Source of the DNA: Fuscovulum ytuae
Lineage (GTDB): Bacteria > Pseudomonadota > Alphaproteobacteria > Rhodobacterales > Rhodobacteraceae
NCBI RefSeq assembly: GCF_029953595.1
Contig: NZ_CP124535.1
Coordinates: forward strand, 1,892,001-1,956,000
Direction: 5' to 3'
Length of the DNA: 64,000 nucleotides
The notes below the pieces were generated by a model. The model did not search any database. It was not told the origin of the DNA and saw only the letters and a program-made list of their open reading frames with translations. A program made the position numbers and the translations under genes. How positions within the stretch are numbered: position 1 is the stretch's first letter; the number at the start of each line of letters is the position of its first letter. Positions 1 through 13,230 of the stretch are shown piece after piece.

Positions 1-1151
1 GCCATCGCGATGGGATGGCCCACCGCGCGGTATTGGCACATCATGTTCTTGTTCTGGAACACCACCCGCCCCCGCGCGCGATAGGCCTCCATCCGATAGG
101 GCGCCCCGGTCAGGTTCAACACCTGATTGCATTCGATAGCCGAGGTGCGCGGATACATCGAAAACGGCCCGATCCCCGTCAGGTCATCAATCTCCAGCCC
201 CGCAATCCGCCCATCGGGATGCACCCCGATCCGCCCCGTCACCACATGGTCGCGGGCATGGATATCGGTCTGGAAACTCTCCATCCGGTCCGCCACGAAT
301 TTCACCGGACGACGCAGCAGTTTCGCCGCCGCGCCCACCGCGATCTCATCGCCATAGGTGTGGATCTTGATCCCGAAACTGCCCCCCACATCGTTCGAGA
401 TGACGCGGATATCCTCCTCCGCCATCCCCAGATGGCGCGACAGGATCACCTGCATCATATGCGGGGCCTGCCCCGAATAATGCATGGTCAGCCGTCCCTC
501 GCCGGGGTCATAGTCCATCACCGTCGCGCGCGGCTCCAGCGTCACGCCCGTATGGCGGCCAAAGCGGAACGTCCGCTCCACCACCCGCACGCCGGGTTGG
601 GCCATGGCGGCGGCCATGTCCCCCACCTCCACCCGCCGCTCCCAAGCCAGATTAGACCCGAACTCCGGATGGATCACGGGGGCATCCGGCGACAGCGCCT
701 CTTCCATCCGCACCGCGGCGGGGATCGGCTCATAATCCGCCTCGATCCGCTCCACCGCATCCTCGGCCTCTGCCCGGCTGGCCGCGACCACCATCGCCAC
801 AGGCTCCCCCTGCCAGCGCACCACATCCACCGCCATCGCAGGCTGCGGCGGCGACCGCAGCCCCGCCAGATGCGTCAGAACCCCCACCCAAGGCGTCACA
901 TGCGCCGCCATCTCGGCCCCGGTCCAGACCGCCACCACCCCCGGCATGGCCCGTGCCTCGGTGACATCCAGCGAAACGATCCGCGCATGCGCATGCGGGC
1001 TGCGCAGAAAGGCCGCATGCACCATCCGCGGCAATTGGATGTCATCGACAAACCGCCCGCGCCCCTGCAACAGCCGCGCCGCATCCGCCCGTGGCTCCGC
1101 CTTCCCGATATAGCGGTTCGGACGGTCAAAGATCGTTGCAGGCCCCGTCAT
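1..1151 (-). CDS. Molybdenum hydroxylase large subunit (xanthine dehydrogenase/CoxL family), 3' part cut by window edge
   Basis: N-terminal 383 residues of a molybdopterin-binding hydroxylase subunit; the rest lies beyond the left edge. The start gives MTGPATIFDRPNRYIG and overlaps the Fe-S subunit stop as ATGA, so translation is coupled. The order FAD subunit, Fe-S subunit, Mo subunit is the CoxM-CoxS-CoxL layout. These enzymes hydroxylate a carbon next to N or O (CO, purines, nicotine, nicotinate and others) with water as oxygen donor, passing electrons through 2Fe-2S to FAD. The motif facing the Mo site reads QYRAVGHPIA. It is neither AYXCSFR of true form I CO dehydrogenase nor a plain AYRGAGR, so this is not expected to be a CO dehydrogenase. 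The substrate cannot be read from the sequence; neighbours point to an aromatic or heteroaromatic acid. Confidence 0.9.
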   Translation of the reverse strand, partial: MTGPATIFDRPNRYIGKAEPRADAARLLQGRGRFVDDIQLPRMVHAAFLRSPHAHARIVSLDVTEARAMPGVVAVWTGAEMAAHVTPWVGVLTHLAGLRSPPQPAMAVDVVRWQGEPVAMVVAASRAEAEDAVERIEADYEPIPAAVRMEEALSPDAPVIHPEFGSNLAWERRVEVGDMAAAMAQPGVRVVERTFRFGRHTGVTLEPRATVMDYDPGEGRLTMHYSGQAPHMMQVILSRHLGMAEEDIRVISNDVGGSFGIKIHTYGDEIAVGAAAKLLRRPVKFVADRMESFQTDIHARDHVVTGRIGVHPDGRIAGLEIDDLTGIGPFSMYPRTSAIECNQVLNLTGAPYRMEAYRARGRVVFQNKNMMCQYRAVGHPIAM

Positions 1152-1624
1152 GCCGCATCCCCCCCGATCACATCGCACACCGCCTCGACAATCGCCTGAT
1201 AGCCGGTGCAGCGGCAGTAATTCCCCGACAGATGCGCCCGTATCGCCGCCCGATCCGGCCCCCCGCCGCCTTCGATATATTCAAGGGCCGAGGCGATCAT
1301 CCCCGGCGTGCAGAACCCGCATTGCAACGCATTGCGTGCCGTGAAGGCCGCCGCCAGCGCCGCCGACCGCCCGCTATCCGCCAGCCCCTCCACCGTCACC
1401 ACCTCGCAGCCTTCCGCCTGCACCGCCAGCATCAGGCAGCCCCGCACCGTCACCCCATCCACAAGGATCGTGCAGGCCCCGCAGACCCCATGCTCGCAAC
1501 CCGCATGGCTGCCCGTCAGCCCCAGATCGTTGCGCAGGAAATCGAGAAGATTCCGCCGCACGGGCACATCGGCCCGCACCTCTTCGCCATTCACCCGGCA
1601 GGTCAGCCGCGCCATCCCTGTCAT
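1148..1624 (-). CDS. Molybdenum hydroxylase small [2Fe-2S] subunit (CoxS-like)
   Basis: A 158-residue two-cluster iron-sulfur subunit, the normal size for CoxS/NdhS proteins. The N-terminal plant-ferredoxin-type cluster uses Cys43, Cys48, Cys51 and Cys63 (GCEHGVCGAC followed by RGC). The C-terminal helical domain binds the second cluster through Cys102, Cys105, Cys137 and Cys139 (QCGFC and NYCRC). It relays electrons from the Mo subunit to the FAD subunit. ATGA overlaps join it to both flanking genes, which decides the start at 1624; an in-frame ATG nine bases downstream is a weaker option. A longer frame starting further upstream has no support. Confidence 0.95.
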   Translation of the reverse strand: MTGMARLTCRVNGEEVRADVPVRRNLLDFLRNDLGLTGSHAGCEHGVCGACTILVDGVTVRGCLMLAVQAEGCEVVTVEGLADSGRSAALAAAFTARNALQCGFCTPGMIASALEYIEGGGGPDRAAIRAHLSGNYCRCTGYQAIVEAVCDVIGGDAA

Positions 1625-2472
1625 GCCACAGCCTCCGCCCATGCCCGCCTTATCGCCACGCCTGCCAGATGCCGCCGCATCGGGGCCGAGGCATGGATGT
1701 CCCCCGCAAAGTCAATCTCGGCCAGCGCCGCCACCGCCCGGTCCAGCGCCGTGCCATCGCCCAGCGCCGCGCCCCGCAAAGCGACCTCGGCCCCTGTCGC
1801 GCGGATCGCCCGATCCGCCACCCCAAACAGCGCGATGCGCGCTTCCGCCACCCGTGCGCCCTCCATCGTCACGGCCACTGCCGCCCCGGCCAGTGCGAAA
1901 TCCCCATGCCGCCGCCCGATCTCGTGGAAACCGAACCGCATTTCCCCGGCCTTCGGCACTTCCAGCGCCACGATCAACTCACCCGGCCCCCGCGCGGTCT
2001 CGTAATGGCCAAGGAAGAAATCGCCCGCCGCCACCCGCCGCTCTCCCGTCAGCGATCGCAGCACCACCACCCCCTCCAAGGCCAGCAGAACCGCAGGCAC
2101 CTCTGCCGCCGGATCGGCCAGCGCAACCGACCCGCCAATCGTGCCCCGATTGCGGATCGCCGGATGCGCAATCTCAGGCAGCGCGCGCGCCAGAAGCGGC
2201 ACCTCCTTGGCAATCTCTTCCGACGCCATCAGGTCCGACCAGCGCGTCATCGCCCCGATCACCAGATGCCCACCTCCATCACAGATGCCCCGCAGCTCGG
2301 CCAAGGCCCCCAGATCGATCAGACGCTCGGGCATCGCCACCCGGAAATTCATCATGGGCATCAGGCTCTGGCCCCCGGCCAAGGGCATCGCCCCGCCCTC
2401 GCCTGCGGCCAATGCCTGCAAAGCATCCTCGATCCGCCCCGGTCGCAGATATCCGAACTCCGCAGCCTTCAT
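1621..2472 (-). CDS. Molybdenum hydroxylase FAD-binding medium subunit (CoxM-like)
   Basis: A 283-residue FAD subunit of a three-subunit molybdenum hydroxylase. It carries the two FAD-binding motifs of the family, AGGQS at residues 32-36 and TIGGS at 111-115 followed by DPAAE. It accepts electrons from the Fe-S subunit and passes them to a cytoplasmic or quinone acceptor. It is the first gene of the operon and overlaps the Fe-S gene by ATGA. About 60 bases upstream lies an operator-like inverted repeat (2531-2544) also found at three other promoters in this block, so the operon is probably controlled by the TetR protein at 2619-3260. Confidence 0.93.
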   Translation of the reverse strand: MKAAEFGYLRPGRIEDALQALAAGEGGAMPLAGGQSLMPMMNFRVAMPERLIDLGALAELRGICDGGGHLVIGAMTRWSDLMASEEIAKEVPLLARALPEIAHPAIRNRGTIGGSVALADPAAEVPAVLLALEGVVVLRSLTGERRVAAGDFFLGHYETARGPGELIVALEVPKAGEMRFGFHEIGRRHGDFALAGAAVAVTMEGARVAEARIALFGVADRAIRATGAEVALRGAALGDGTALDRAVAALAEIDFAGDIHASAPMRRHLAGVAIRRAWAEAVA

Positions 2473-2530
2473 GCGCCCCCCCGTTACGGTGGCCCGCGCA
2501 ACCCTCCCGCCACGCCGACCCCGCCCTTGT

Positions 2531-2544
2531 TTATCGATCTATAA
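2531..2544. promoter_or_regulatory. Putative TetR operator, copy 1 (molybdenum hydroxylase promoter)
   Basis: TTATCGATCTATAA, an inverted repeat with TTAT/ATAA arms and a 6-base centre, lies between the FAD subunit start and the 3' end of tetR. Near-identical 14-mers occur at 3299, 3377 and 6289, all in promoter regions of this block. Assignment to the neighbouring TetR protein is inference. Confidence 0.65.
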
Positions 2545-2618
2545 CTTAACCGCCGAACAGCATCTGGCAAGCCCGTTTCCATCCCCGGAAACGCGCCAAC
2601 CCTCGACCTTTTCGGAAA

Positions 2619-3260
2619 TCAGCCCCGCTTCAGCGCCAGCCCATGCAGAAAGGCCGCCACCGCATCCGCGATCACCTGCCGCTTGTCGGCGGAAACGCAG
2701 CTTTCATAGATCAGATCGCGCACGCCGTAATAGAAGATACCGCCATGCATGACCCAAGCGAACTCCACCTCGTCATCGCGCGGCACGGCCTCTGGCAATC
2801 CCGCCTCTGCCCGCGCCTCGATCACGATTGGCTCTAGGATGCGATGCCGGACAAGCTGCATGTAGCGGCGGTTGATATCCACGCCCTTCAGCCCGGAAAA
2901 CAGATAGATGCGCATCCATTCCCGGTTAAAGATCACATCGGTATAAGCGTTGTAGAATTCGTTCAGCCGATCCGCCAAAGGCCGCGACCGATCCCCGATC
3001 AGGGTCGCCCATTCCGGCTGCCAGCGGTTCACATAGACCGTCTCATAGACTTCGTGGATCAGGTCTTCCTTGCTTGGGAAATAGCGATAAAGCAGCGGCT
3101 GCGTCACCCCCAGCCGCTTGGCCAACCCACGCGTCGAACTTTCAAAGCCCTCTTCGGCAAAGAATTCCACCGCTCGCGTGACAAACTCGCGCCGCCGCTC
3201 GTCCGAAGGCAAACGCCGCCTGCGCGGCTTTTCCGCCCCCTCAGGCCGTTCATCCTTCAT
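2619..3260 (-). CDS. TetR/AcrR family transcriptional regulator
   Basis: A 213-residue one-component regulator. The N-terminal DNA-binding domain spans about residues 20-70. Its helix-turn-helix (STRGLAKRLGVTQPLLYRYF) is followed by PSKEDLIHEVYE, the usual end of the TetR_N domain. The C-terminal domain would bind the inducer. The ATG at 3260 is chosen because a purine-rich AAGGGG lies seven bases upstream; a GTG 18 bases further up has no such site. It sits between the molybdenum hydroxylase operon and the divergent cyclase-GST operon. A 16-bp palindrome at its own promoter and related sites at the others suggest autoregulation and control of the whole block, most likely as a repressor released by a pathway compound. 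Confidence 0.92.
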   Translation of the reverse strand: MKDERPEGAEKPRRRRLPSDERRREFVTRAVEFFAEEGFESSTRGLAKRLGVTQPLLYRYFPSKEDLIHEVYETVYVNRWQPEWATLIGDRSRPLADRLNEFYNAYTDVIFNREWMRIYLFSGLKGVDINRRYMQLVRHRILEPIVIEARAEAGLPEAVPRDDEVEFAWVMHGGIFYYGVRDLIYESCVSADKRQVIADAVAAFLHGLALKRG

Positions 3261-3297
3261 CGCGCACCCCTTCCGCACAGGGCCAACTTCGCCGCCC

Positions 3298-3313
3298 GTT
3301 ATCGATTGATAAC
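3298..3313. promoter_or_regulatory. Putative TetR operator, copy 2 (tetR promoter)
   Basis: GTTATCGATTGATAAC is an inverted repeat with 6-bp arms (GTTATC/GATAAC) and a 4-base centre. It lies 38 bases upstream of the tetR start and is the most symmetric of the four related sites. An autoregulatory position is typical of TetR operators. Confidence 0.7.
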
Positions 3314-3376
3314 AAATTCCGCCCTAGGGCGGCAAGTTTCCCCACCGCAGACCTATTGACGCGCCTTCCGTTTTAT

Positions 3377-3390
3377 TTTTCAGTCGATAA
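3377..3390. promoter_or_regulatory. Putative TetR operator, copy 3 (cyclase-GST promoter)
   Basis: On the minus strand this reads TTATCGACTGAAAA, with one half-site perfect and the other degenerate. It is 29 bases upstream of the cyclase-family gene and about 65 bases from copy 2, so the tetR-cyclase divergent promoter carries two sites. Confidence 0.5.
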
Positions 3391-3419
3391 ATAACGCAGG
3401 GCGCAAGGGGGAGGGTCCG

Positions 3420-4376
3420 ATGGCGAAATACACCCGCGACGATATCTACAAGGCCGCGAAAGAGCTGTCGAATTGGGGCCGCTGGGGGGCGGATGACCAG
3501 ATCGGCACGCTGAACAATGTCAGCCCCGAAGACGTGGTCCGCGCCGCTGGCCTGATCCGCAAGGGCAAGACCTTCGCCCTTGGCCTGAACCTGAAGGAAA
3601 AGATCCAGTCCGGCCTTTTCGGCGGGCGCTGGAACATGATCCACCAGATGCTCGCCACCGGGACCGATGCCGTGATCGGCGCGCAGGACGGGGACGGCAA
3701 GAAATACCTCCGCTACGCCGATGACGCGATCAACCTGCCCTGTCAGGGATCGACGCAATGGGACGCGCTCTGCCACATCTTCCTCGATGACAAGATGTAT
3801 AACGGCTACCCCGCCACCGACGTGACCGTGGCAGGTGCCGCCCGCCTTGGCATCGAACATGTCCGCGACAAGATGGTCGGTCGCGGCGTCCTTCTCGACA
3901 TCGCGCGCTGGAAGGGACTCGACAGCCTTCCCGACGGCTATCCCGTCACCAATGCCGACCTTGACGGCTGCGCCGCCGCGCAGGGCGTGGAAATCCGCAA
4001 GGGCGATTTCGTCATCATCCGCACCGGTCATCAGGAACGCTGCCTCGCCGCCGCCGACTGGACGGGCTACGCGGGCGGCGATGCCCCCGGCCTTGCCTTT
4101 GAAACCGCCTACTGGATTCGTCAGCACGACATCGCCGCGATCTGCGCCGATACCTGGGGCTGCGAAGTCCGCCCCAACGAATGCGACGAGGCGAACCAGC
4201 CTTGGCACTGGGTCGTCATCCCCGCCATCGGCATTTCCATGGGCGAGATTTTCTACGTCAAGGAATTGGCAGAAGACTGCGCTGCCGATGGGGTCTATGA
4301 ATTCTTCTTCACCGCCCCGCCGCTCCACATCCCCGGCGCGGCAGGCTCCCCCATCAATCCACAGGCAATCAAATGA
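3420..4376 (+). CDS. Cyclase family protein (PF04199-type metal-dependent hydrolase)
   Basis: A 318-residue member of the family that includes kynurenine formamidase and isatin hydrolase, which open amide or lactam bonds with a bound metal. The centre shows QGSTQWDALCH (about residues 109-119). The Asp and the final His match the family metal-binding pattern, but the leading His of the usual HxGTHxD motif is replaced. This is a feature of the longer branch of the family. No signal peptide is seen, so it is cytoplasmic. It starts an operon with the GST gene (ATGA overlap) and lies under a putative TetR operator. In this block it could open a hydroxylated N-heterocycle or hydrolyse an amide intermediate; that role is inference. 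Confidence 0.85.
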   Translation: MAKYTRDDIYKAAKELSNWGRWGADDQIGTLNNVSPEDVVRAAGLIRKGKTFALGLNLKEKIQSGLFGGRWNMIHQMLATGTDAVIGAQDGDGKKYLRYADDAINLPCQGSTQWDALCHIFLDDKMYNGYPATDVTVAGAARLGIEHVRDKMVGRGVLLDIARWKGLDSLPDGYPVTNADLDGCAAAQGVEIRKGDFVIIRTGHQERCLAAADWTGYAGGDAPGLAFETAYWIRQHDIAAICADTWGCEVRPNECDEANQPWHWVVIPAIGISMGEIFYVKELAEDCAADGVYEFFFTAPPLHIPGAAGSPINPQAIK

Positions 4377-5017
4377 CATTCATCCTCTGGGGCCGCGCCA
4401 GCTCGGCCAATGTGCAAAAGGCGCTCTGGGCGCTGGCCGAATTGGGCTTGCCTTACGAACACCGCATCGTGGGGGGCCGCTATGGTGGCACCGACGGCGC
4501 GGAATTCACCGCCCTCACCCCCACCCGCAAGGTGCCCGTCCTGCAAGACGGCCCCCTCGCCATCTGGGACAGCCATGCCATCCTGCGCCACTTGGGCCTG
4601 TGGCACGCGCCCAAGGACCATGCCCTGCACCTTGGCACGCCCGCCGCGATGGCCGCCTCCGATTCATGGCTCGACTTCACCTCGACCGTGCTGCAACCGC
4701 CCTTCATCCGGCTGTTCTGGCAACTGGTCCGCACCCCTGCCGATCAGCAAAGCGCCGCCGCACAAGAGGCCGCCAAGAAGGACATCGCCGCCGCCCTCAC
4801 CGAACTCGCGCGCGGGATCGATGATGACGGGCGGCTGGCCGGGGCCGATTTCAGCATGGCCGACATCGCGCCCGGCAGCCTGATGTATCGCCTGAACGAC
4901 CTCGCCCCCGAGGTGATCGCCGCCAACCCCAAAGTCGCCGCATGGGTCGCACGCCTTCAGGTGCGCCCCCACTGGCAGGCCCATGTCGCCACCAGCTACG
5001 AAGAACTGCGCGTGTAA
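4373..5017 (+). CDS. Glutathione S-transferase family protein
   Basis: A 214-residue soluble GST. The N-terminal thioredoxin fold starts FILWGRASSANVQKALW, with a Ser in the position used to activate glutathione, and includes the conserved KVPVLQDG cis-proline segment. The all-helical C-terminal domain contains the ADFSMADIAPG motif of the hydrophobic core. Its start overlaps the cyclase stop as ATGA, so both act together. In catabolic operons such proteins often isomerise cis/trans ring-cleavage products or detoxify intermediates. The substrate is unknown. Confidence 0.9.
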   Translation: MTFILWGRASSANVQKALWALAELGLPYEHRIVGGRYGGTDGAEFTALTPTRKVPVLQDGPLAIWDSHAILRHLGLWHAPKDHALHLGTPAAMAASDSWLDFTSTVLQPPFIRLFWQLVRTPADQQSAAAQEAAKKDIAAALTELARGIDDDGRLAGADFSMADIAPGSLMYRLNDLAPEVIAANPKVAAWVARLQVRPHWQAHVATSYEELRV

Positions 5018-5061
5018 CGAACCGGGCCGGGGGGGCCGCCTCCGGCCCCCCCGCACCCCCC

Positions 5062-6255
5062 CTATTCCACCATCACCGCCGTATCGCGCATGATCTCCTC
5101 CTGATGGCGGTTGTTCGCACCATCCGCATTCCCCCCCGGCGGATCATCAAACAGATAAGCCCCCAGCCGCCGTGACCGCGACCATGCCTTCTCGGCCTCG
5201 GGCACCCGTTCCGCCGAATAGGCCGCCAGCGCCGCCGCCACATCCCCCGCCCCAGCCAGATGCCGCGCCAAGGCCAGCGCATCGCAAGCAGCCTTCGTCA
5301 CCCCCATCCCCACATGGGGCCGTGCCACGCAGGCCGCATCCCCCGTCAGCGCCACCCGCCCCTCAGCCATCACGGGCGAGACATGGTCATAGATCGGCGT
5401 GAAAAAGGGGCGCTCGGCCACCCGCAAGATCTCTACAAAAGGCCGCGCCAGCCGCGCCTCTGCATCAGCCATCATCGCCGACACGACATCCTCCCGCACC
5501 AGTGGCGGCGGGATTGACACGGAATGCAGCACGCCCTCCCCATCCGTCAGCATGTCACGCAAGGCGCGCGGCTCTACCGGCACATACCAGACGAAATTGT
5601 ACCGCCGATGCCCCGGTCGCAGGTCATTCTCCGGCCCCGCGATGGGATAGCCGATGAACTCCCCCCCCGTTGGCAGGTGAAACCCGAAATGCGGGAACAC
5701 CTCCTCGCGCACCTGCACGGGCAAGTCCGCCTCATGGGCCAAGGTCCGCCAGACCACATAGCCGGAATAGACGGGCTGTACTTCAGGCAGCATCTGCCCC
5801 CGGATCGCCGACCTGAACCCATCCGCCCCCACCAGCACATCGCCCCGCGCCGCACGCCCATCGGCAAAGTGCAGCGTCACGCCATCCGCATCCTGCGCAT
5901 AACCCGCCACCGCCCGGCCCATATGATGCGTCCCCTCCGGCATCAGCGCCCGCAAACCCCGGTGAATGCGATCCCATGAGGTCACCACCTGCGGCAGGCG
6001 CAACCGCCCCACCTCGCGGCCCGCCAAATCCCATGTCACCCGATCCTCGACCGCCACGCCCAGATCGGCCACATCCACACCCACCGCCCGAAGCGCCGCC
6101 ACCAGCACGTCATGCGTCACGATCCCAGCGCCGCGCCCCGAAAGCTCCACCCCCGTGCGCTCGAACACCTCAACCTGCCAGCCCGCGCGCCGCAGGGCCG
6201 CCGCCGCGAACAGCCCGCCAATCGACCCGCCGCAGACCAGCGCCTTCCCCGTCAT
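5062..6255 (-). CDS. FAD-dependent aromatic monooxygenase, 2,6-dihydroxypyridine 3-monooxygenase-like
   Basis: A 397-residue single-component flavoprotein hydroxylase. It has the N-terminal Rossmann motif GGSIGG (residues 9-14), the DG-type segment VLVGADGFRS, and the second FAD motif VALTGDAAC. Several stretches (LSGRGAGIV, YSGYVVWRT, IGYPIAGPEND, and a following NFVWY) match the pattern I recall for 2,6-dihydroxypyridine 3-monooxygenase from nicotine degradation. It probably adds a hydroxyl to an aromatic or pyridine ring using NAD(P)H and O2. It is convergent with the GST gene and divergent from the cupin, sharing the promoter region that contains operator copy 4. The exact substrate is not deducible. 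Confidence 0.88.
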   Translation of the reverse strand: MTGKALVCGGSIGGLFAAAALRRAGWQVEVFERTGVELSGRGAGIVTHDVLVAALRAVGVDVADLGVAVEDRVTWDLAGREVGRLRLPQVVTSWDRIHRGLRALMPEGTHHMGRAVAGYAQDADGVTLHFADGRAARGDVLVGADGFRSAIRGQMLPEVQPVYSGYVVWRTLAHEADLPVQVREEVFPHFGFHLPTGGEFIGYPIAGPENDLRPGHRRYNFVWYVPVEPRALRDMLTDGEGVLHSVSIPPPLVREDVVSAMMADAEARLARPFVEILRVAERPFFTPIYDHVSPVMAEGRVALTGDAACVARPHVGMGVTKAACDALALARHLAGAGDVAAALAAYSAERVPEAEKAWSRSRRLGAYLFDDPPGGNADGANNRHQEEIMRDTAVMVE

Positions 6256-6285
6256 GCCACCGCTCCCTTTCCTCTGGCCACCCTC

Positions 6286-6305
6286 TATTTATCGCACTAT
6301 AAATA
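6286..6305. promoter_or_regulatory. Putative TetR operator, copy 4 (monooxygenase/cupin divergent promoter)
   Basis: TATTTAT-CGCACT-ATAAATA is a perfect inverted repeat with 7-bp arms. It contains the core TTATCGCACTATAA (6289-6302), which aligns with the other three sites. It sits 34 bases from the monooxygenase start and 43 bases from the cupin start, able to serve both. Confidence 0.65.
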
Positions 6306-6347
6306 AGAAGAGCCAGACGAAGAAGCAATCTCGAAGCGGAGGATGCG

Positions 6348-6749
6348 ATGACGCCCCACACCCCAGCGCAAGATTTTTCCGGCCCCCATTGGACGCCCGA
6401 ATTGCTGACCGAACTGGAACAGGGCCGCAGCAATGGTCGCGTAGGCTCCCGCATCGTGTCGGAAAGCGACCGGGTCCGCGTCTGGCTGATCGAATTGCAA
6501 CCGGGCGAACGCCTGCCCTTCCACACCCATGTGCAGGACTATTTCTGGACGGCCACCACACCAGGCCGCGCCCGGTCACGCTATGCCGACGGACGGGTGG
6601 CCGAGGTCACCTATGATCTGGGCGACACCCGCCATTTCAGCTTTGGCAAGGGCGAGTCGATGACCCATGATCTGGAAAATATCGGCGACAGCGTGCTGTG
6701 CTTCACCACGGTGGAATTCTTCGGCAGCGCGAACCCGCCCCTGCTCTGA
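6348..6749 (+). CDS. Small cupin-domain protein
   Basis: A 133-residue protein that fits a single cupin barrel. The first cupin motif is recognisable as PGERLPFHTHVQDYFW, with HTH supplying metal-ligand-like histidines; the second motif is near residues 105-125 (MTHDLENIGDSVL) and keeps a His. A GCGGAGGA ribosome site precedes the ATG at 6348. Such small cupins can be metal-dependent dioxygenases, isomerases or ligand-binding accessory proteins. Here it is divergent from the flavin monooxygenase and shares its operator, so it probably acts on a compound of the same pathway. Its reaction is unknown. Confidence 0.8.
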   Translation: MTPHTPAQDFSGPHWTPELLTELEQGRSNGRVGSRIVSESDRVRVWLIELQPGERLPFHTHVQDYFWTATTPGRARSRYADGRVAEVTYDLGDTRHFSFGKGESMTHDLENIGDSVLCFTTVEFFGSANPPLL

Positions 6750-6857
6750 TCCCTTTCCCCAGAGAAAGGAAAACCCGCCATCGGGCGGGATGCTCTATGT
6801 GCGCCAGCGCACGGTTAACCATGCCGCCAACCGATTTCACGCAAAAATCGGTATGAA

Positions 6858-6902
6858 CACTTTGCTGCACAAAACCCGGCACAAAACAGGGCACAGCCGT
6901 TG
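6858..6902 (+). repeat. 45-bp GCACAAAA intergenic repeat, copy A
   Basis: It contains three GCACA(AAA) units at a 12-base period. Closely similar 45-mers lie at 40484-40528 and 47092-47136. About 60 bases upstream is a GTGCGC/GCGCAC inverted repeat and GGTTAACCAT (6799-6822), also matched upstream of copy B. It lies between convergent gene ends. Function unknown. Confidence 0.75.
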
Positions 6903-6917
6903 TCGGCCAAATCCCTG

Positions 6918-6960
6918 AAAAGGCGGCGGAAAACGGTTACCTTAACCGTTTTCCGCCGCC
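6918..6960 (-). terminator. Rho-independent terminator of the tctCBA operon
   Basis: A perfect 18-bp stem (6922-6939 with 6943-6960) and a 3-base loop, followed on the minus strand by TTTT, begins 6 bases after the tctA stop codon. This is the strongest terminator-like hairpin in the window. Confidence 0.9.
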
Positions 6961-6966
6961 CCCGCT

Positions 6967-8484
<1,518 letters not shown>

Positions 8485-8485
8485 C

Positions 8486-8974
8486 TCAGCGCCCGAATAT
8501 CGCCATCTCGATCGGCCCGCCCGGCAGGTTCAACTGCAACAGGACGTCGAAAGCAGCGTAGATGACAAAGCCAAGGACAAGGCCCGAAGGGATAGCGATA
8601 TGGAACCGCCGCTCGCCAAAGGCCGCCGCCGCGCAGGTGAACAGGATCGTCGATCCAAGGATGAAACCGATCGTGTGGATCGTGGCAACCATCGCCGCCA
8701 TCCCGCCCAACAGCCAGATCAGCGGCACCGGATGTTGTTTTGGCCGCGCAGGCCCCGGATTGCGCCAACCTTCGATCCCCGTGCCAATCCCCAGCAAAAC
8801 AAGGACCGCCCCGATCAGTTTGGGCACATCACCCGCCCCGACACCGGAATATCCCGCCCGTGCCGGCACGCGCGCGCCGTCCCAGATCAGCAGCAGCCCA
8901 AGCCCCACCAAGGCCGCCGCAATAACGAACGCCGCCCCGTCGGGGCGGCGTCCCTTGGCACCTTGCGGTGTCAT
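8486..8974 (-). CDS. tctB: Tripartite tricarboxylate transporter, small permease TctB
   Basis: A 162-residue membrane protein with four predicted helices (about residues 17-32, 45-62, 85-105 and 115-140), matching TctB size and topology. The sequence of TctB proteins is poorly conserved, so the call rests mainly on topology and position between tctC and tctA. The start overlaps the tctC stop as ATGA. Confidence 0.9.
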
Positions 8975-9915
8975 TGCACCAGACCGATGTCCTTGAGGAC
9001 AGCCGTCGTCGCTTCGATTTCCTTGGCAAGCTGCGCCTCGAAATCGGCACCGGCCAGATAGGTGTCAGCCCAGCCTTTCGTCGCCAGCGCCTGCTGCCAA
9101 CCCGCGGATTTCGCAAGCTTTTCGATATCAGCTTGCACCTGCGCCTTCTGCTCGTCGCTCAGGCCCGGCGCGGCGGCGACCATGCGCCAGTTCTGCACCA
9201 CCACGTCATAGCCCGCCTCGGCCAGCGTCGGCGCATCCACGCCCTCGATCCGCGCATCCGACGACACGGCCAGAAGGCGCATCGTGCCCGCCTCAACCTG
9301 CGGCAGGAACTCGCCCAGACCCGACACACCCGCCGTCACCTGATTGCCAAGGATGGCCGCCGTCGCCTCGCCACCGCCCGAGAAGGCGATATAGTTGATC
9401 TTGGTCGGATCAATGCCCGCCGCCTTGGCCAGAAGGCCCACGGTGATATGGTCCACACCACCCGCCGACCCACCGGCCCAGCTTACCGCACCCGGATCGG
9501 CAACCATGGCATCGACCAACCCCTTGATATCCTGAATGGGCGAGGCCGCCGGAACCACGATCGCCACCGCTTCACCCGTCAGCCGTGCAACCGGCGTGAC
9601 ATCGGCCAGCGACACCGGCGAGGCATTGGTCAGGATCGCCCCCACCATCACATAACCACCGACGATCAACTGCGACGCATCACCCGACGCGCTCGCCACG
9701 AATTGCGCAAGGCCCACCGTGCCACCCGCGCCGGGGACGTTCGTCACCTGAACCGACCCGGAAATGCCTTCCGCCTGCATCACTTCCTGCATGGTGCGCG
9801 CGGTGGAATCCCACCCGCCGCCGGGGCTGGCCGGGGCCATGATCGTGTAATCATTGGCAAAAGCCGGCATCGCCAGCGCAGCAGCAACCATCGCGCCAAA
9901 AAGGGCGTGTTTCAT
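8971..9915 (-). CDS. tctC: Tripartite tricarboxylate transporter, periplasmic binding protein TctC
   Basis: A 314-residue binding protein with a clear Sec signal peptide (MKHALFGAMVAAALAMPAFA). Mature TctC-family features follow, including the early MAPASPGGGWDSTAR loop that contacts the ligand carboxylate and a NVPGAGGTVGLA segment. The ATG at 9915 is preceded by GGGAGG and starts the signal peptide; a longer frame upstream would bury it. TctC proteins deliver diverse carboxylates, including aromatic acids, to TctAB. The promoter region upstream holds a direct repeat resembling an OmpR/PhoB-class site. Confidence 0.93.
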   Translation of the reverse strand: MKHALFGAMVAAALAMPAFANDYTIMAPASPGGGWDSTARTMQEVMQAEGISGSVQVTNVPGAGGTVGLAQFVASASGDASQLIVGGYVMVGAILTNASPVSLADVTPVARLTGEAVAIVVPAASPIQDIKGLVDAMVADPGAVSWAGGSAGGVDHITVGLLAKAAGIDPTKINYIAFSGGGEATAAILGNQVTAGVSGLGEFLPQVEAGTMRLLAVSSDARIEGVDAPTLAEAGYDVVVQNWRMVAAAPGLSDEQKAQVQADIEKLAKSAGWQQALATKGWADTYLAGADFEAQLAKEIEATTAVLKDIGLVQ

Positions 9916-9933
9916 CTGGATTATCCTCCCTTG

Positions 9934-9952
9934 TCCCGGGTCAGGCCCGGGA
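9934..9952. promoter_or_regulatory. Hairpin in the tctC leader
   Basis: TCCCGGG and CCCGGGA form a 7-bp stem with a 5-base loop, 19 bases upstream of the tctC start codon. It may influence leader folding; no U-tract follows, so it is not a typical terminator. Confidence 0.4.
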
Positions 9953-10006
9953 TGATTCCCTTGGTGGGCACCTCCTCGTGCCTCCCAAGCGTCAGGCAAT
10001 CACAGA

Positions 10007-10028
10007 AACCTGTCATCAACCTGACACG
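10007..10028. promoter_or_regulatory. 11-bp direct repeat upstream of tctC, OmpR/PhoB-class binding site candidate
   Basis: Two adjacent 11-mers, AACCTGTCATC and AACCTGACACG, lie 92-113 bases upstream of tctC. Direct repeats with this period are typical of OmpR-family regulators. The 18 bases from 10010 match most positions of the classical Pho box. The nearby TctD-like regulator is the likelier ligand, PhoB the alternative. Confidence 0.5.
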
Positions 10029-10031
10029 GGT

Positions 10032-11093
10032 CTAGCGCCCCGTCAGCGCCGCCTCCCACCGTGCCAACAACCGCCGCCGCTTGGCCTGATCCAGATAGAC
10101 CAGCAAACCGGGGCTAACGCCCACCGGCTGCAACTGCGCCCCCAGCACTGCCTGCATCATCCGCGCGCTGTTGGCATCCGACACTTCCAAGGAAACCGCA
10201 GGCAGCCGCAGCTTGCGCGCCAGAACCTCCTGCCCCTCCCGGCTCATCAGAAAGCCAAGGAAAGCCTCGCCCAGATCGGGATTGCGCGCGGCCTTCGGCA
10301 CCAGCGCCACGCGCGACACAACCACCGTGTAGTCCTTCAGCAGCACCAGCCCGATCTCTGGCCGCTGCCGCGCCTGATCGGCGGCGTATGATCCAAGGAT
10401 GTTGTAGCCGATCTTCAACCGCCCATCGGCCACCCGGTCGATAATGTCCTGACTGGTGGGGAAAACCTCCAACCCCGCCCGCGCCATGGCCCCGACCAGC
10501 GTCCAGATATCGGCAAACCGCTCTTCATCCCGCGCAAGGAACAGATAGCCCAGCGCCGACCGCGTGATGTCATAGGTCCCCACCGCGCCCCCGCCCCCCG
10601 CAGGCTGCGCCTTAAGCCAAGCCATCAACGCCAACCGCGATTGCGGTGGCCCATCCGGAAAGCTCGGTCGATGATAGACCAGCACCGCAGGTTCAAAGGT
10701 CAGGGCATAGGCCCGGTCCTGCCATTTCGCCCAATCCGGCCAATCCCGCGCCGCCTCTGGCTGCACCGACAGGGCATAACCGTCATTGGCAAGGCTCATC
10801 TGCAAATCCATGCCGGACGAAAAGACGAAATCTGCCGTCACACCCGGCCCGTCCGTCTCATCCCGCACACGGTCGCGGATCTGGCCTGTCAGCAAATCCT
10901 CATAGCGCACCGCCACGTCGGGGTAGGCCTCTTGAAAGGCCGTGACCATCGGTGCGGCCAGCCCTTCATCCAGCGTGGAATAGATCGTCAACTCCCGCGC
11001 CGGCGTCCCAGATGGCGCCTCGAAAAGGAAAACTTCCCCCCGCGCGGGCCACGCGAAGGCCAAGGCCAACAGGATAGGCACGATCCCCCTCAT
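10032..11093 (-). CDS. Orphan periplasmic ABC-type substrate-binding protein, probable co-sensor of the TctDE-like system
   Basis: A 353-residue extracellular solute-binding protein of the iron/spermidine/phosphoglycerate-regulator type. The signal peptide is about residues 1-19 (MRGIVPILLALAFAWPARG). The mature part begins ELTIYSTLDEGLAAPMVTAF, typical of type-1 binding proteins. No permease or ATPase gene is nearby. It is divergent from the two-component pair, the arrangement of PgtC-like proteins that regulate a sensor kinase rather than import. It therefore probably binds the inducer in the periplasm and touches the kinase sensor domain. That role is inference; a transport role with distant partners is possible. 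Confidence 0.85.
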   Translation of the reverse strand: MRGIVPILLALAFAWPARGEVFLFEAPSGTPARELTIYSTLDEGLAAPMVTAFQEAYPDVAVRYEDLLTGQIRDRVRDETDGPGVTADFVFSSGMDLQMSLANDGYALSVQPEAARDWPDWAKWQDRAYALTFEPAVLVYHRPSFPDGPPQSRLALMAWLKAQPAGGGGAVGTYDITRSALGYLFLARDEERFADIWTLVGAMARAGLEVFPTSQDIIDRVADGRLKIGYNILGSYAADQARQRPEIGLVLLKDYTVVVSRVALVPKAARNPDLGEAFLGFLMSREGQEVLARKLRLPAVSLEVSDANSARMMQAVLGAQLQPVGVSPGLLVYLDQAKRRRLLARWEAALTGR

Positions 11094-11170
11094 GGCGCAC
11101 AGCTTGCCCGAACCCGCCCCAGTTCACAACGCCGCCATTCCCCCCTACTCTCCCTCGCCAGAGGGACACC

Positions 11171-11845
11171 ATGCGCATCATGCTTGTCGAAGATGACCGC
11201 CCACTGGCCGAGGCGCTGACCACGCTTCTCGTCACGGCGGGCTATGCCGTCGATACCGTCCATGACGGCGCCTCGGCCGAGGCGCTCGGGGCGGCAGAAC
11301 GCTTCGATCTTGTGATCCTCGACCTGAACCTGCCGGAAATGGATGGGCTTTCGGTCCTGCGCGCCCTGCGCGGGCGCTCCGATGATGCCGCCGTGATGAT
11401 CCTGACGGCGCGCGGCGCGCCCGAAGACCGCGTGCGCGGCCTGAACCTTGGGGCAGATGACTATCTCACCAAACCCTTCGACGTGGCAGAGTTCGAGGCG
11501 CGGGTCCGCTCGCTCCTGCGCCGTCAGGCGGGCCTGCGCACCTCTAGCCTGACCTTGGGCGATGTGACCCTCGACCTCATCTCCCGCCGCTTCTTTACAC
11601 CCGACGGCCCCATCGACCTGCCCGCCCGCGAACTTGCCCTGTGCGAGCTTCTCTTCACCCGGGCGGGCAAGGTGGTCAGCAAGGAAACCATCGTCCAATC
11701 CCTCACCTCGCTGGACGACTCACTGTCCGATAATGCCATCGAACAATACATCTCCCGCCTGCGCCGCCGCCTTGCGCCGCATGGCGTGACCCTGCGCACC
11801 GCGCGCGGCATCGGCTATTACATCGACAAGGGCCCCGGCGCATGA
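11171..11845 (+). CDS. tctD: OmpR-family response regulator, TctD-like
   Basis: A 224-residue two-domain regulator. The receiver domain has the acidic pair in MLVEDDRP, the phospho-acceptor Asp in VILDLNLPEMDG (about residue 51) and the conserved Lys in YLTKPFD (about residue 102). The C-terminal winged helix (about 125-220) ends ISRLRRRLAPHGVTLRTARG as in OmpR/PhoB. It overlaps the kinase gene by ATGA. It lies next to tctCBA and an orphan binding protein, so it likely activates tctC expression; the 11-bp direct repeat at 10007-10028 is a candidate target. Confidence 0.92.
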   Translation: MRIMLVEDDRPLAEALTTLLVTAGYAVDTVHDGASAEALGAAERFDLVILDLNLPEMDGLSVLRALRGRSDDAAVMILTARGAPEDRVRGLNLGADDYLTKPFDVAEFEARVRSLLRRQAGLRTSSLTLGDVTLDLISRRFFTPDGPIDLPARELALCELLFTRAGKVVSKETIVQSLTSLDDSLSDNAIEQYISRLRRRLAPHGVTLRTARGIGYYIDKGPGA

Positions 11846-13230
11846 CGGCCCTTCCCGTCTTTGTCCGTGGATCGCTGCGCCGCCGCCTGCTGGGCTGGCT
11901 GCTGGTGTCCACCCTCCTTCTCGGCCTCATCGCCCTTGCCGATACATGGGCCGAGGCACGCCGCACCGCGCAGGGCGTATCGGACCGCGTCCTTGCCGGC
12001 TCCACCCTCGCCATCGCCGAACGGGTCAGCGTCGATCTGTCGGGCGTGATCGAGGTCGACATCCCCTATTCCGCGCTCGACATGCTTGCCTCAGCGGCCG
12101 AGGATCAGGTCTTCTACCGCGTCGACGGTCCCGACGGGTTCCTGACGGGTTATGACGGCCTCGCTCTCGCCCCGCGCCCTGATGGGGCAGATACCGGCTT
12201 TGCCGATGGGGCCATTGGCGACACGCGCCTACGCATTGCCACCCGCTACGGGCAGGTGTCCACGGGCGAAGATGTCCTGCCCTTTTCGGTCACCGTGGCC
12301 GAATCCACCCGCGCCCGCGATGCACTGGCGCAGACGATCCTCGTCCGCTCTGCCCTGCGCCTGACGGGCCTTGCCGCCGGGGCCGCGCTAATCGTTTGGA
12401 TCATCGTGACCATCACGCTGCGGCCTTTGGACCGCCTTGCCCGCACCCTTGCCGCGCGTGCGCCCGATGACCTCAGCCCGCTAGAAGCCGACATCCCCTC
12501 CGAAGTCGCAGGTCCAATCGAGGCGATGAACAGCTTCATGGCCCGCCTCGACGGCGCCGTGGCCGCGCTGCGCAACTTCACCGGCAATGCTGGCCACCAG
12601 CTGCGCACCCCCCTCGCCACCGTCCGCGCCCAGCTTGCCCTTATCGCGCGCGGCGGCCCCGAAGGCCGCGACGGCATCGCCAAGGCGGAAGGCGCGCTGA
12701 TCCGCGCCGAACGGGTGCTGGCGCAACTCCTGATGCTTGCCCGGATCGATGCCACCGCCGCCCGCCGCGCGCTGCCCGCAACCGACATCGCCGCTATCGC
12801 CCGCACCACCACCGCCGAGGCGATCCCCGAAGCCACCCGCTTCGGCCATGATCTGGGCTATGAAGGCGATGACCACCTCATCGCCCGCGCCGATCCCGTC
12901 CTGTGCGCCGAACTTTTGACCAACCTCGTCGACAACGCCATCCGCTATGCAGGCCCCCGCGCCACGATCACTGTCCGCGCCCGCCACACCAGCCAAGGCC
13001 CGGTGCTGGAGGTAGAGGATGACGGCCCCGGCCTTCCCCCCGACGCCATCCCCCGCCTGATCGCGCGGCAAGACCTGCGCGCCGATGCCAGCCAAGGCAC
13101 CCATGGCCTAGGCCTTGCCGTTGTGGCCGAAATCGCGCGTCTGTTTGGTGCCGCGCTTGATTTCGCCCCGGCAACCTCTGGTAAGGGCCATGTCATCCGC
13201 TGCCGCTTCCCGCAGCCCGACGCCGATTAG
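11842..13230 (+). CDS. tctE: Sensor histidine kinase, TctE-like
   Basis: A 462-residue inner-membrane kinase. The first membrane helix is about residues 12-32. A periplasmic sensor domain (about 35-170) resembles the two-component sensor kinase N-terminal domain of TctE/QseC. The second helix is about 178-198, followed by a HAMP-like linker. The H-box GHQLRTPLATV holds the phosphorylated His (about residue 252). Nucleotide-binding N, G1 and G2 boxes are visible as LVDNAIRYA, VEDDGPGLP and THGLGLAVV. Its stop overlaps the stop of the convergent exoD-like gene. It probably senses a carboxylate, alone or through the orphan binding protein, and controls tctCBA. Confidence 0.9.
   Translation: MTALPVFVRGSLRRRLLGWLLVSTLLLGLIALADTWAEARRTAQGVSDRVLAGSTLAIAERVSVDLSGVIEVDIPYSALDMLASAAEDQVFYRVDGPDGFLTGYDGLALAPRPDGADTGFADGAIGDTRLRIATRYGQVSTGEDVLPFSVTVAESTRARDALAQTILVRSALRLTGLAAGAALIVWIIVTITLRPLDRLARTLAARAPDDLSPLEADIPSEVAGPIEAMNSFMARLDGAVAALRNFTGNAGHQLRTPLATVRAQLALIARGGPEGRDGIAKAEGALIRAERVLAQLLMLARIDATAARRALPATDIAAIARTTTAEAIPEATRFGHDLGYEGDDHLIARADPVLCAELLTNLVDNAIRYAGPRATITVRARHTSQGPVLEVEDDGPGLPPDAIPRLIARQDLRADASQGTHGLGLAVVAEIARLFGAALDFAPATSGKGHVIRCRFPQPDAD

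Follow-up and report, generated by a model that had tools for sequence, protein, structure and literature searches.

A probable TetR regulon in a molybdenum hydroxylase catabolic cluster of Fuscovulum ytuae and its recurrence in related genomes

Introduction

Within a 64,000-nucleotide stretch of the Fuscovulum ytuae genome (the window), a tetR gene stands among genes for a molybdenum (Mo) hydroxylase, a cyclase-family protein, a glutathione S-transferase (GST)-like protein and a FAD monooxygenase, accompanied by four similar 14-base palindromes. An earlier note on this DNA proposed that a single TetR protein controls the four promoters concerned. Does it, by what kind of control, and do further promoters belong to the set? 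Our best explanation, to which we assign a probability of about 0.9, is that the palindromes serve as operators of the TetR protein encoded at 2619-3278, which would hold a catabolic regulon off until a compound of the pathway releases it.

Results

Four palindromes in a catabolic gene cluster

The four 14-mers described in the earlier note were found exactly, at the same coordinates and on the same strands (Table 1), and each lies where that note had placed it, in the promoter regions of coxM (Mo hydroxylase), tetR, the cyclase gene, and the monooxygenase and cupin genes. Their span was overstated there, as positions 2531 to 6302 cover 3.8 kb rather than 6.7 kb.

Table 1. Genes and candidate operators in the analyzed part of the window
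Feature	Position	Strand	Description and basis
coxL-like molybdopterin subunit	3..1178	-	Pfam/NCBIfam; truncated at the window edge; ORF of 803 aa in the extended locus L056
coxS-like 2Fe-2S subunit	1148..1642	-	Pfam/NCBIfam
coxM-like FAD-binding subunit, molybdenum hydroxylase	1621..2472	-	Pfam/NCBIfam
Operator 1 (candidate)	2531..2544	.	59 bp upstream of the coxM start (coxM on minus strand)
tetR	2619..3278	-	TetR-family regulator with TetR_N; 219 aa when counted from the ORF's GTG
Operator 2 (candidate)	3299..3312	.	tetR-proximal; tetR-proximal sites also in other genera
Operator 3 (candidate)	3377..3390	.	cyclase-proximal; TTTTCAGTCGATAA on + strand
cyclase-family protein	3420..4376	+	PF04199
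glutathione S-transferase-like protein	4373..5017	+	Pfam/NCBIfam; overlaps cyclase end
FAD monooxygenase	5062..6255	-	Pfam/NCBIfam; best solved relative 2,6-dihydroxypyridine hydroxylase (2vou)
Operator 4 (candidate)	6289..6302	.	divergent monooxygenase/cupin promoter
small cupin-like protein	6348..6749	+	cupin relatives among solved structures
tctA, tctC	after cupin-like gene	-	Pfam/NCBIfam or solved relatives; tctB between them named by position

The cyclase and GST genes probably share one operon. The sole solved relative of the cyclase, 5ibz, is itself named an uncharacterized protein, and neither Pfam nor NCBIfam gave the cupin-like protein a match at 0.001. A scan of positions 1-12000 of the window gave no Rfam family at gathering score. 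To the left of the window, the cluster continues with a histidinol-dehydrogenase-like gene, genes for an SDR, a TRAP transporter, a PuuE-like deacetylase, an LLM monooxygenase and a PcaD-like hydrolase, and others, including a LysR-like gene and dctQ, both named by eye. Two further sites, 80 bp apart (C1:1886615 and C1:1886695), lie in the divergent dctP/dctQM promoter of the transporter. Located 5.4 kb to the left of the window, they bring the count of sites in the cluster to at least six.

The earlier note had also argued that so many similar 14-mers are not expected by chance, a claim that searches for the exact and the symmetric forms bear out and a loose search does not. Its own pattern, TTATCGNNNNATAA, gave 22 rows in the window with up to two mismatches versus 11.9 expected (standard deviation, 3.6), a number attained in 1 of 100 shuffles of the window; this search is mostly background, since 8 of the 22 rows are the four sites counted on both strands. 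The symmetric form TTATCRNNYGATAA gave six matches with up to two mismatches versus 1.8 expected, and the four sites were its only matches in the window with zero or one mismatch.

Across the genome (4,185,011 bases, 4.19 Mb), exact TTATCGNNNNATAA occurs in four places, window positions 2531, 3299 and 6289 and the distant C1:1567966. Many unrelated genome matches, which the earlier note would have held against a common regulator, were thus not seen for exact sites, three of the four being in the cluster. Allowing one mismatch yielded 35 matches versus 36 for the reversed-pattern control, and such matches, site 3377 among them, are therefore weightless alone. This site is a weaker copy, with a TTTTCA half, and the same form recurs in other genera. 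The longer half-site TTATTTATC has three occurrences in the genome, all in the cluster and one of them at site 3377, versus none for the control.

The adjacent gene encodes a TetR-family regulator

The product of tetR, whose true start may be the in-frame ATG at 3260, has the TetR_N helix-turn-helix at its N terminus (PF00440, E value of 1e-13, 51.3 bits versus a cut-off of 24). Its monomer was modeled as ten helices and no strand (pLDDT 86.3, pTM 0.79), and the top Foldseek matches to this model were TetR-family structures, with TM-scores of up to 0.68 by query. As is usual for TetR/AcrR regulators, a palindrome lies near the gene, a likeness read from sequence alone. The protein scored below the curated cut-off for all 12 NCBIfam families listed, the best being FasR with 36.6 bits versus 330; the subfamilies compared included FasR, AcuR, RutR, BetI and AcrR. 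Among the papers listed by a literature search with the operator strings, every one contained TTATTTATCG alone, and the five palindrome forms were absent.

The sites recur at orthologous promoters

A first search covered 61 genomes, 49 of them with some TetR match at 0.001 and eight at 1e-50 or better. In a second search, 44 of 394 genomes of the family had a TetR match at 1e-30 or better, with 50 matches in total; TetR proteins of this group are present in 43 of the 393 genera sampled. The 48 loci examined comprise 45 of those 50 matches (five were not fetched) and three from the first search. Most belong to one of three classes of recognition helix: A, with QPL[LI]YRYF (25 loci); B, with QSL[LI]F[NKR]YF (15 loci); and C, with SHAVIYRHF (four loci, one ending at a contig end and three testable). 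Four loci have other helices, and no TTATC-type site was found upstream of tetR in these.

The 25 class-A loci hold 80 sites with up to two mismatches in 464,823 bases, versus 8.2 on average and no more than 17 in 20 first-order resamples and four for the reversed pattern. Among 120 permuted palindromes in these loci, TTATCG ranked first, with 40 sites versus at most five. Counting the window's monooxygenase/cupin site in addition to the 80, the sites fall at tetR (28, of which 24 are also near the cyclase), DctP/DctQ (25), coxM (14), monooxygenase/cupin (8) and elsewhere (6). The cyclase gene is near tetR in 17 of 19 class-A loci checked. The regulon drawn in the earlier note is supported at its four promoters and was too small, as the TRAP transporter promoter very probably belongs to it as well.

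In the closest relative, G010, the same 14 bases are found at Operators 1, 3 and 4, as are both TRAP sites. Operator 2 is absent there, which counts against our best explanation. A clear exception is genome G206, which has a class-A helix and no site with up to two mismatches near tetR or the cyclase gene. Genome G391 combines the class-A helix and operator with a gene order like that of class B.

Six relatives were examined among 59 plasmid records with a TetR match. In those from Rhizobium johnstonii and Ancylobacter, a class-A helix is accompanied by a site next to tetR and the cyclase gene, with one and zero mismatches, respectively. The Agrobacterium relative, also class A, has its site (two mismatches) beside a transporter/dehydrogenase gene set with no annotated cyclase or coxMSL, and the Methylobacterium relative, with the near variant QPLLFRYF, has one (two mismatches) by tetR and coxM. 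In Paraburkholderia, with a class-A helix, no site was found upstream of tetR, which counts against the best explanation; two sites (two mismatches) lie downstream of tetR, before a VOC-family gene. The Loktanella relative is class B, with TTGATC-N4-GATCAA.

Promoter-specific departures from the palindrome recur

The sites deviate from perfect symmetry in ways that depend on the promoter. One half of Operator 1 reads TTATA on the coxM strand, as it does in 12 of the 14 coxM-promoter sites found among the 25 class-A loci; in 13 of these 14, the site lies 55 to 83 bp before the matched gene start. The monooxygenase/cupin promoter carries a site in eight class-A genomes, including the source genome, and a TTATA half is present in six of seven, or seven of eight with the window's own. 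At cyclase promoters, TTGAC precedes the operator by 20 to 22 bases in 10 of 17 cases, such that a -10 element at a spacing of 17 to 18 bases would fall in the first half of the operator, which is TTTTCA in 7 of those 10. Operator 3 thus likely overlaps the -10 region of the cyclase promoter. As no sigma-70 promoter passed a consensus scan of positions 2400-6500, this reading of -10 and -35 elements rests on recurrence. The recurrence of promoter-specific departures suggests that the palindromes overlap promoter elements. The paired sites at tetR/cyclase and at the TRAP transporter would allow putative cooperative binding, and Operator 2 is possibly autoregulatory.

These positions bear on the direction of control. 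That TetR binds and activates some promoters, or is a dual regulator, would fit best at the TRAP transporter, given the positions of the sites in the DctP/DctQ promoter, one of them upstream of a possible -35 and so placed compatibly with activation too, and a TTAGC half in 18 of the 25 sites there; FasR, a transcriptional activator according to NCBIfam, is also among the weak relatives of the protein. We nevertheless regard activation as unlikely, because the overlap with the likely -10 region at the cyclase gene and the position of the sites before coxM are both repressor-like placements.

Operator type follows the TetR recognition helix

A stretch of 780 bp upstream of tetR was searched in each locus. 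TTATC-N4-GATAA (up to one mismatch in 10) was present there in 22 of the 25 loci of class A; none of the 15 class-B and three class-C loci had it. TGATC-N4-GATCA was present in 3 of 25 class-A, 13 of 15 class-B and none of the three class-C loci. AAGTGGTCACTT occurred within one mismatch in all three testable class-C loci and in one class-B locus, L117. In an open scan of tetR upstream regions for palindromes of 5+5 bases with gaps of 0 to 8, the class-A loci most often had TTATC-N4-GATAA (exact in 17 of 25). The class-B loci most often had GATCA-N2-TGATC (8 of 15) and TGATC-N4-GATCA (7 of 15), one motif read twice. As the loci of each class mostly have their own palindrome, operator type follows the recognition helix. 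The differing residues P61, Y64 and R65 fall within helix 60-66 of the predicted structure.

In a tree built from the C-terminal part of the proteins, leaving out the DNA-binding domain, classes B and C each form a single clade; the plasmid relatives except that of Loktanella were labeled class A there, the QPLLFRYF one included. The switch of helix and operator thus represents about two events, and the Fisher tests on their match, which ignore relatedness, give overstated values.

The sites might instead bind another regulator, such as the LysR-like protein, whose gene lies in the extended cluster (L056 4936-5877) and has relatives in several loci, with the adjoining TetR a bystander. We consider this very improbable. 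The operator tracks the helix of TetR in all three classes, the Agrobacterium relative retains both helix and site amid other neighbors, and genome G032, a single case, has cyclase and GST genes but lacks both a TetR match at 0.001 and any site within 1.5 kb upstream of its cyclase gene.

Sites and regulator co-occur across genomes

The earlier note had suggested a search for co-occurrence of the motif with this tetR, and its outcome agrees with control by TetR. A strict TTATCRNNYGATAA site was found in 20 of 25 class-A genomes, in 3 of 22 with another TetR type (two of the 22, G362 and G394, being genomes in which the helix was not seen) and in 4 of 53 without a TetR match at 1e-30, where absence was in part read from the full list of 44 matches. 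Twenty of the class-A genomes were picked after their loci had been seen; the remaining five and the other types were counted separately. In the three other-type genomes, the site is far from the tetR locus or on another contig, and in G072, one of the four exceptions without TetR, the cluster lies on a contig that starts at the cyclase gene. Of 35 strict places in class-A genomes, 26 are inside the fetched tetR loci, one more is on the same contig and eight are elsewhere.

At the distant exact site, C1:1567966, the gene immediately downstream is of the acetamidase/formamidase family. We left the site out of the regulon, as it is missing from the ~150 bp upstream of the same gene in the three relatives whose gene start was located (G010, G005 and G001). 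In both G107 and G240, a strict site outside the cluster precedes a gene for a metallo-beta-lactamase-fold protein, which hints at further regulon members there.

Chance likeness, or a likeness of AT-rich promoter elements in GC-rich DNA, could invoke the single-mismatch genome matches, no commoner than the control, but is scarcely credible when resamples and reversed and permuted patterns fall short of the observed counts and recurrence extends to four orthologous promoters.

Discussion

The proposal that one TetR protein serves the four promoters is supported by recurrence at orthologous promoters, by the match of helix and operator, and by co-occurrence across genomes. As a dimer, TetR would occupy sites resembling TTATTTATCRNNYGATAAATAA that cover or adjoin the promoters of tetR, cyclase-GST, coxMSL, the FAD monooxygenase and cupin genes, and the TRAP transporter outside the window, acting as a local repressor that keeps the catabolic regulon off; a substrate or intermediate of the pathway, most likely an N-heteroaromatic compound, would release it. 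From the evidence above we infer that TetR physically binds the sites, that it represses instead of activating, that it regulates its own gene, and what kind of ligand it has. That the regulon is real, recurrent and larger than first noticed is well supported; as a mechanism it is ordinary.

A broader reading, which we hold to be slightly favored over its negation, is that a widespread alphaproteobacterial TetR group regulates Mo-hydroxylase/heterocycle catabolic clusters, and that about two changes of its operator specificity went along with changes of the recognition helix. One such switch would be P61-Y64-R65 to S-F-N/K/R together with TTATC to TGATC at constant spacing, and each promoter's departure from the palindrome would be kept because an operator half doubles as a promoter element. 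The paired variants form a small natural series on DNA reading by TetR proteins. For the catabolic cluster, an operator sequence and a testable regulon are now given, and the search for the substrate is narrowed, since a single sensor links several separate transcription units with a transporter.

Literature searches on the pathway gave no usable assignment, and PheR was dropped, as it is an IclR-type regulator (PMC13273656). The protein resembles TetR/AcrR regulators (FasR, KstR, HapR/SmcR and AmtR are among the fold matches) in its N-terminal helix-turn-helix, its all-helical fold, and the palindromic site beside its gene with a divergent neighbor; it differs in sequence, with only 14 to 23% identity among the 50 structural matches listed.

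For the pathway, the closest comparison is the caffeine C-8 oxidation cluster of Pseudomonas sp. CBB1, given in the accessible text of PMC4408171 as cdhABC, tmuM, tmuH and tmuD; the word regulator is absent from that main text. Compared with the caffeine cluster as described there, the window cluster differs in having cyclase, GST and cupin genes and in its monooxygenase, which is nearest to 2,6-dihydroxypyridine hydroxylase. Partners of the TmuH/TmuD type were sought as the NCBIfam families for hydroxyisourate hydrolase (uraH) and OHCU decarboxylase (uraD), and neither appeared among the matches listed for the 20 cluster proteins scanned; one deacetylase of the cluster matched PuuE below the cut-off. 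The two clusters are alike in combining a trimeric Mo hydroxylase with a FAD monooxygenase. Matches of the Mo hydroxylase are to the xanthine/aldehyde/CO dehydrogenase group and stay below every NCBIfam cut-off, and the monooxygenase aligns with 2vou, its nearest solved relative, over residues 2-365 of 397 (E value of 2e-49), though its substrate may differ. Beside the tetR of the Methylobacterium relative lie coxMSL-like genes, a FAD monooxygenase gene, uraD, two uraH genes and a nucleobase symporter gene, a set that resembles the caffeine C-8 route as outlined in PMC4408171. Together with the matches of the monooxygenase and the Mo hydroxylase, this resemblance makes an N-heteroaromatic compound the likely substrate of the pathway.

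Predicted operator copies outside the window and in relatives

The divergent dctP/dctQM promoter of the TRAP transporter carries two more copies of the predicted TetR operator, 80 bp apart. Among the 25 class-A loci, i.e., those whose TetR orthologue has the recognition helix QPL[LI]YRYF, operator sites occurred again at this promoter in 16, and a TTAGC half was present in 18/25 of the TRAP-promoter operator sites. No recognisable operator was found near the TetR or cyclase genes of one relative, G206 (stretches L101 and L137), though its TetR helix is of class A.

Off-cluster copies precede a metallo-beta-lactamase-fold gene in two genera (G240, L152 2703; G107, L153 2985), and this gene is possibly an additional regulon member. 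Elsewhere in the source genome, a perfect palindrome, TTATCGGTCGATAA, lies immediately 5′ of an acetamidase/formamidase-family gene (C1:1567966; position 7967 of stretch L057); it was not seen in the DNA inspected upstream of the corresponding family gene in three relatives (G010, G005, and G001).

Transporter genes next to the cluster

Positions of features at and around the cluster
Feature	Position	Description
Operator copies, TRAP promoter	L056 8615 and 8695 (genome C1:1886615 and 1886695)	left of window
Perfect inverted repeat	window 6922-6960	arms 18 bases, loop 3 bases; cupin gene/tctA interval
tctA-tctB-tctC transporter genes	window 6967-9999	adjoin cluster

The inverted repeat between the cupin gene and tctA looks like a bidirectional terminator, albeit one without a T run. 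A pattern search of the window returned no operator copy at 0-1 mismatch before tctA-tctB-tctC, in contrast to the TRAP transporter.
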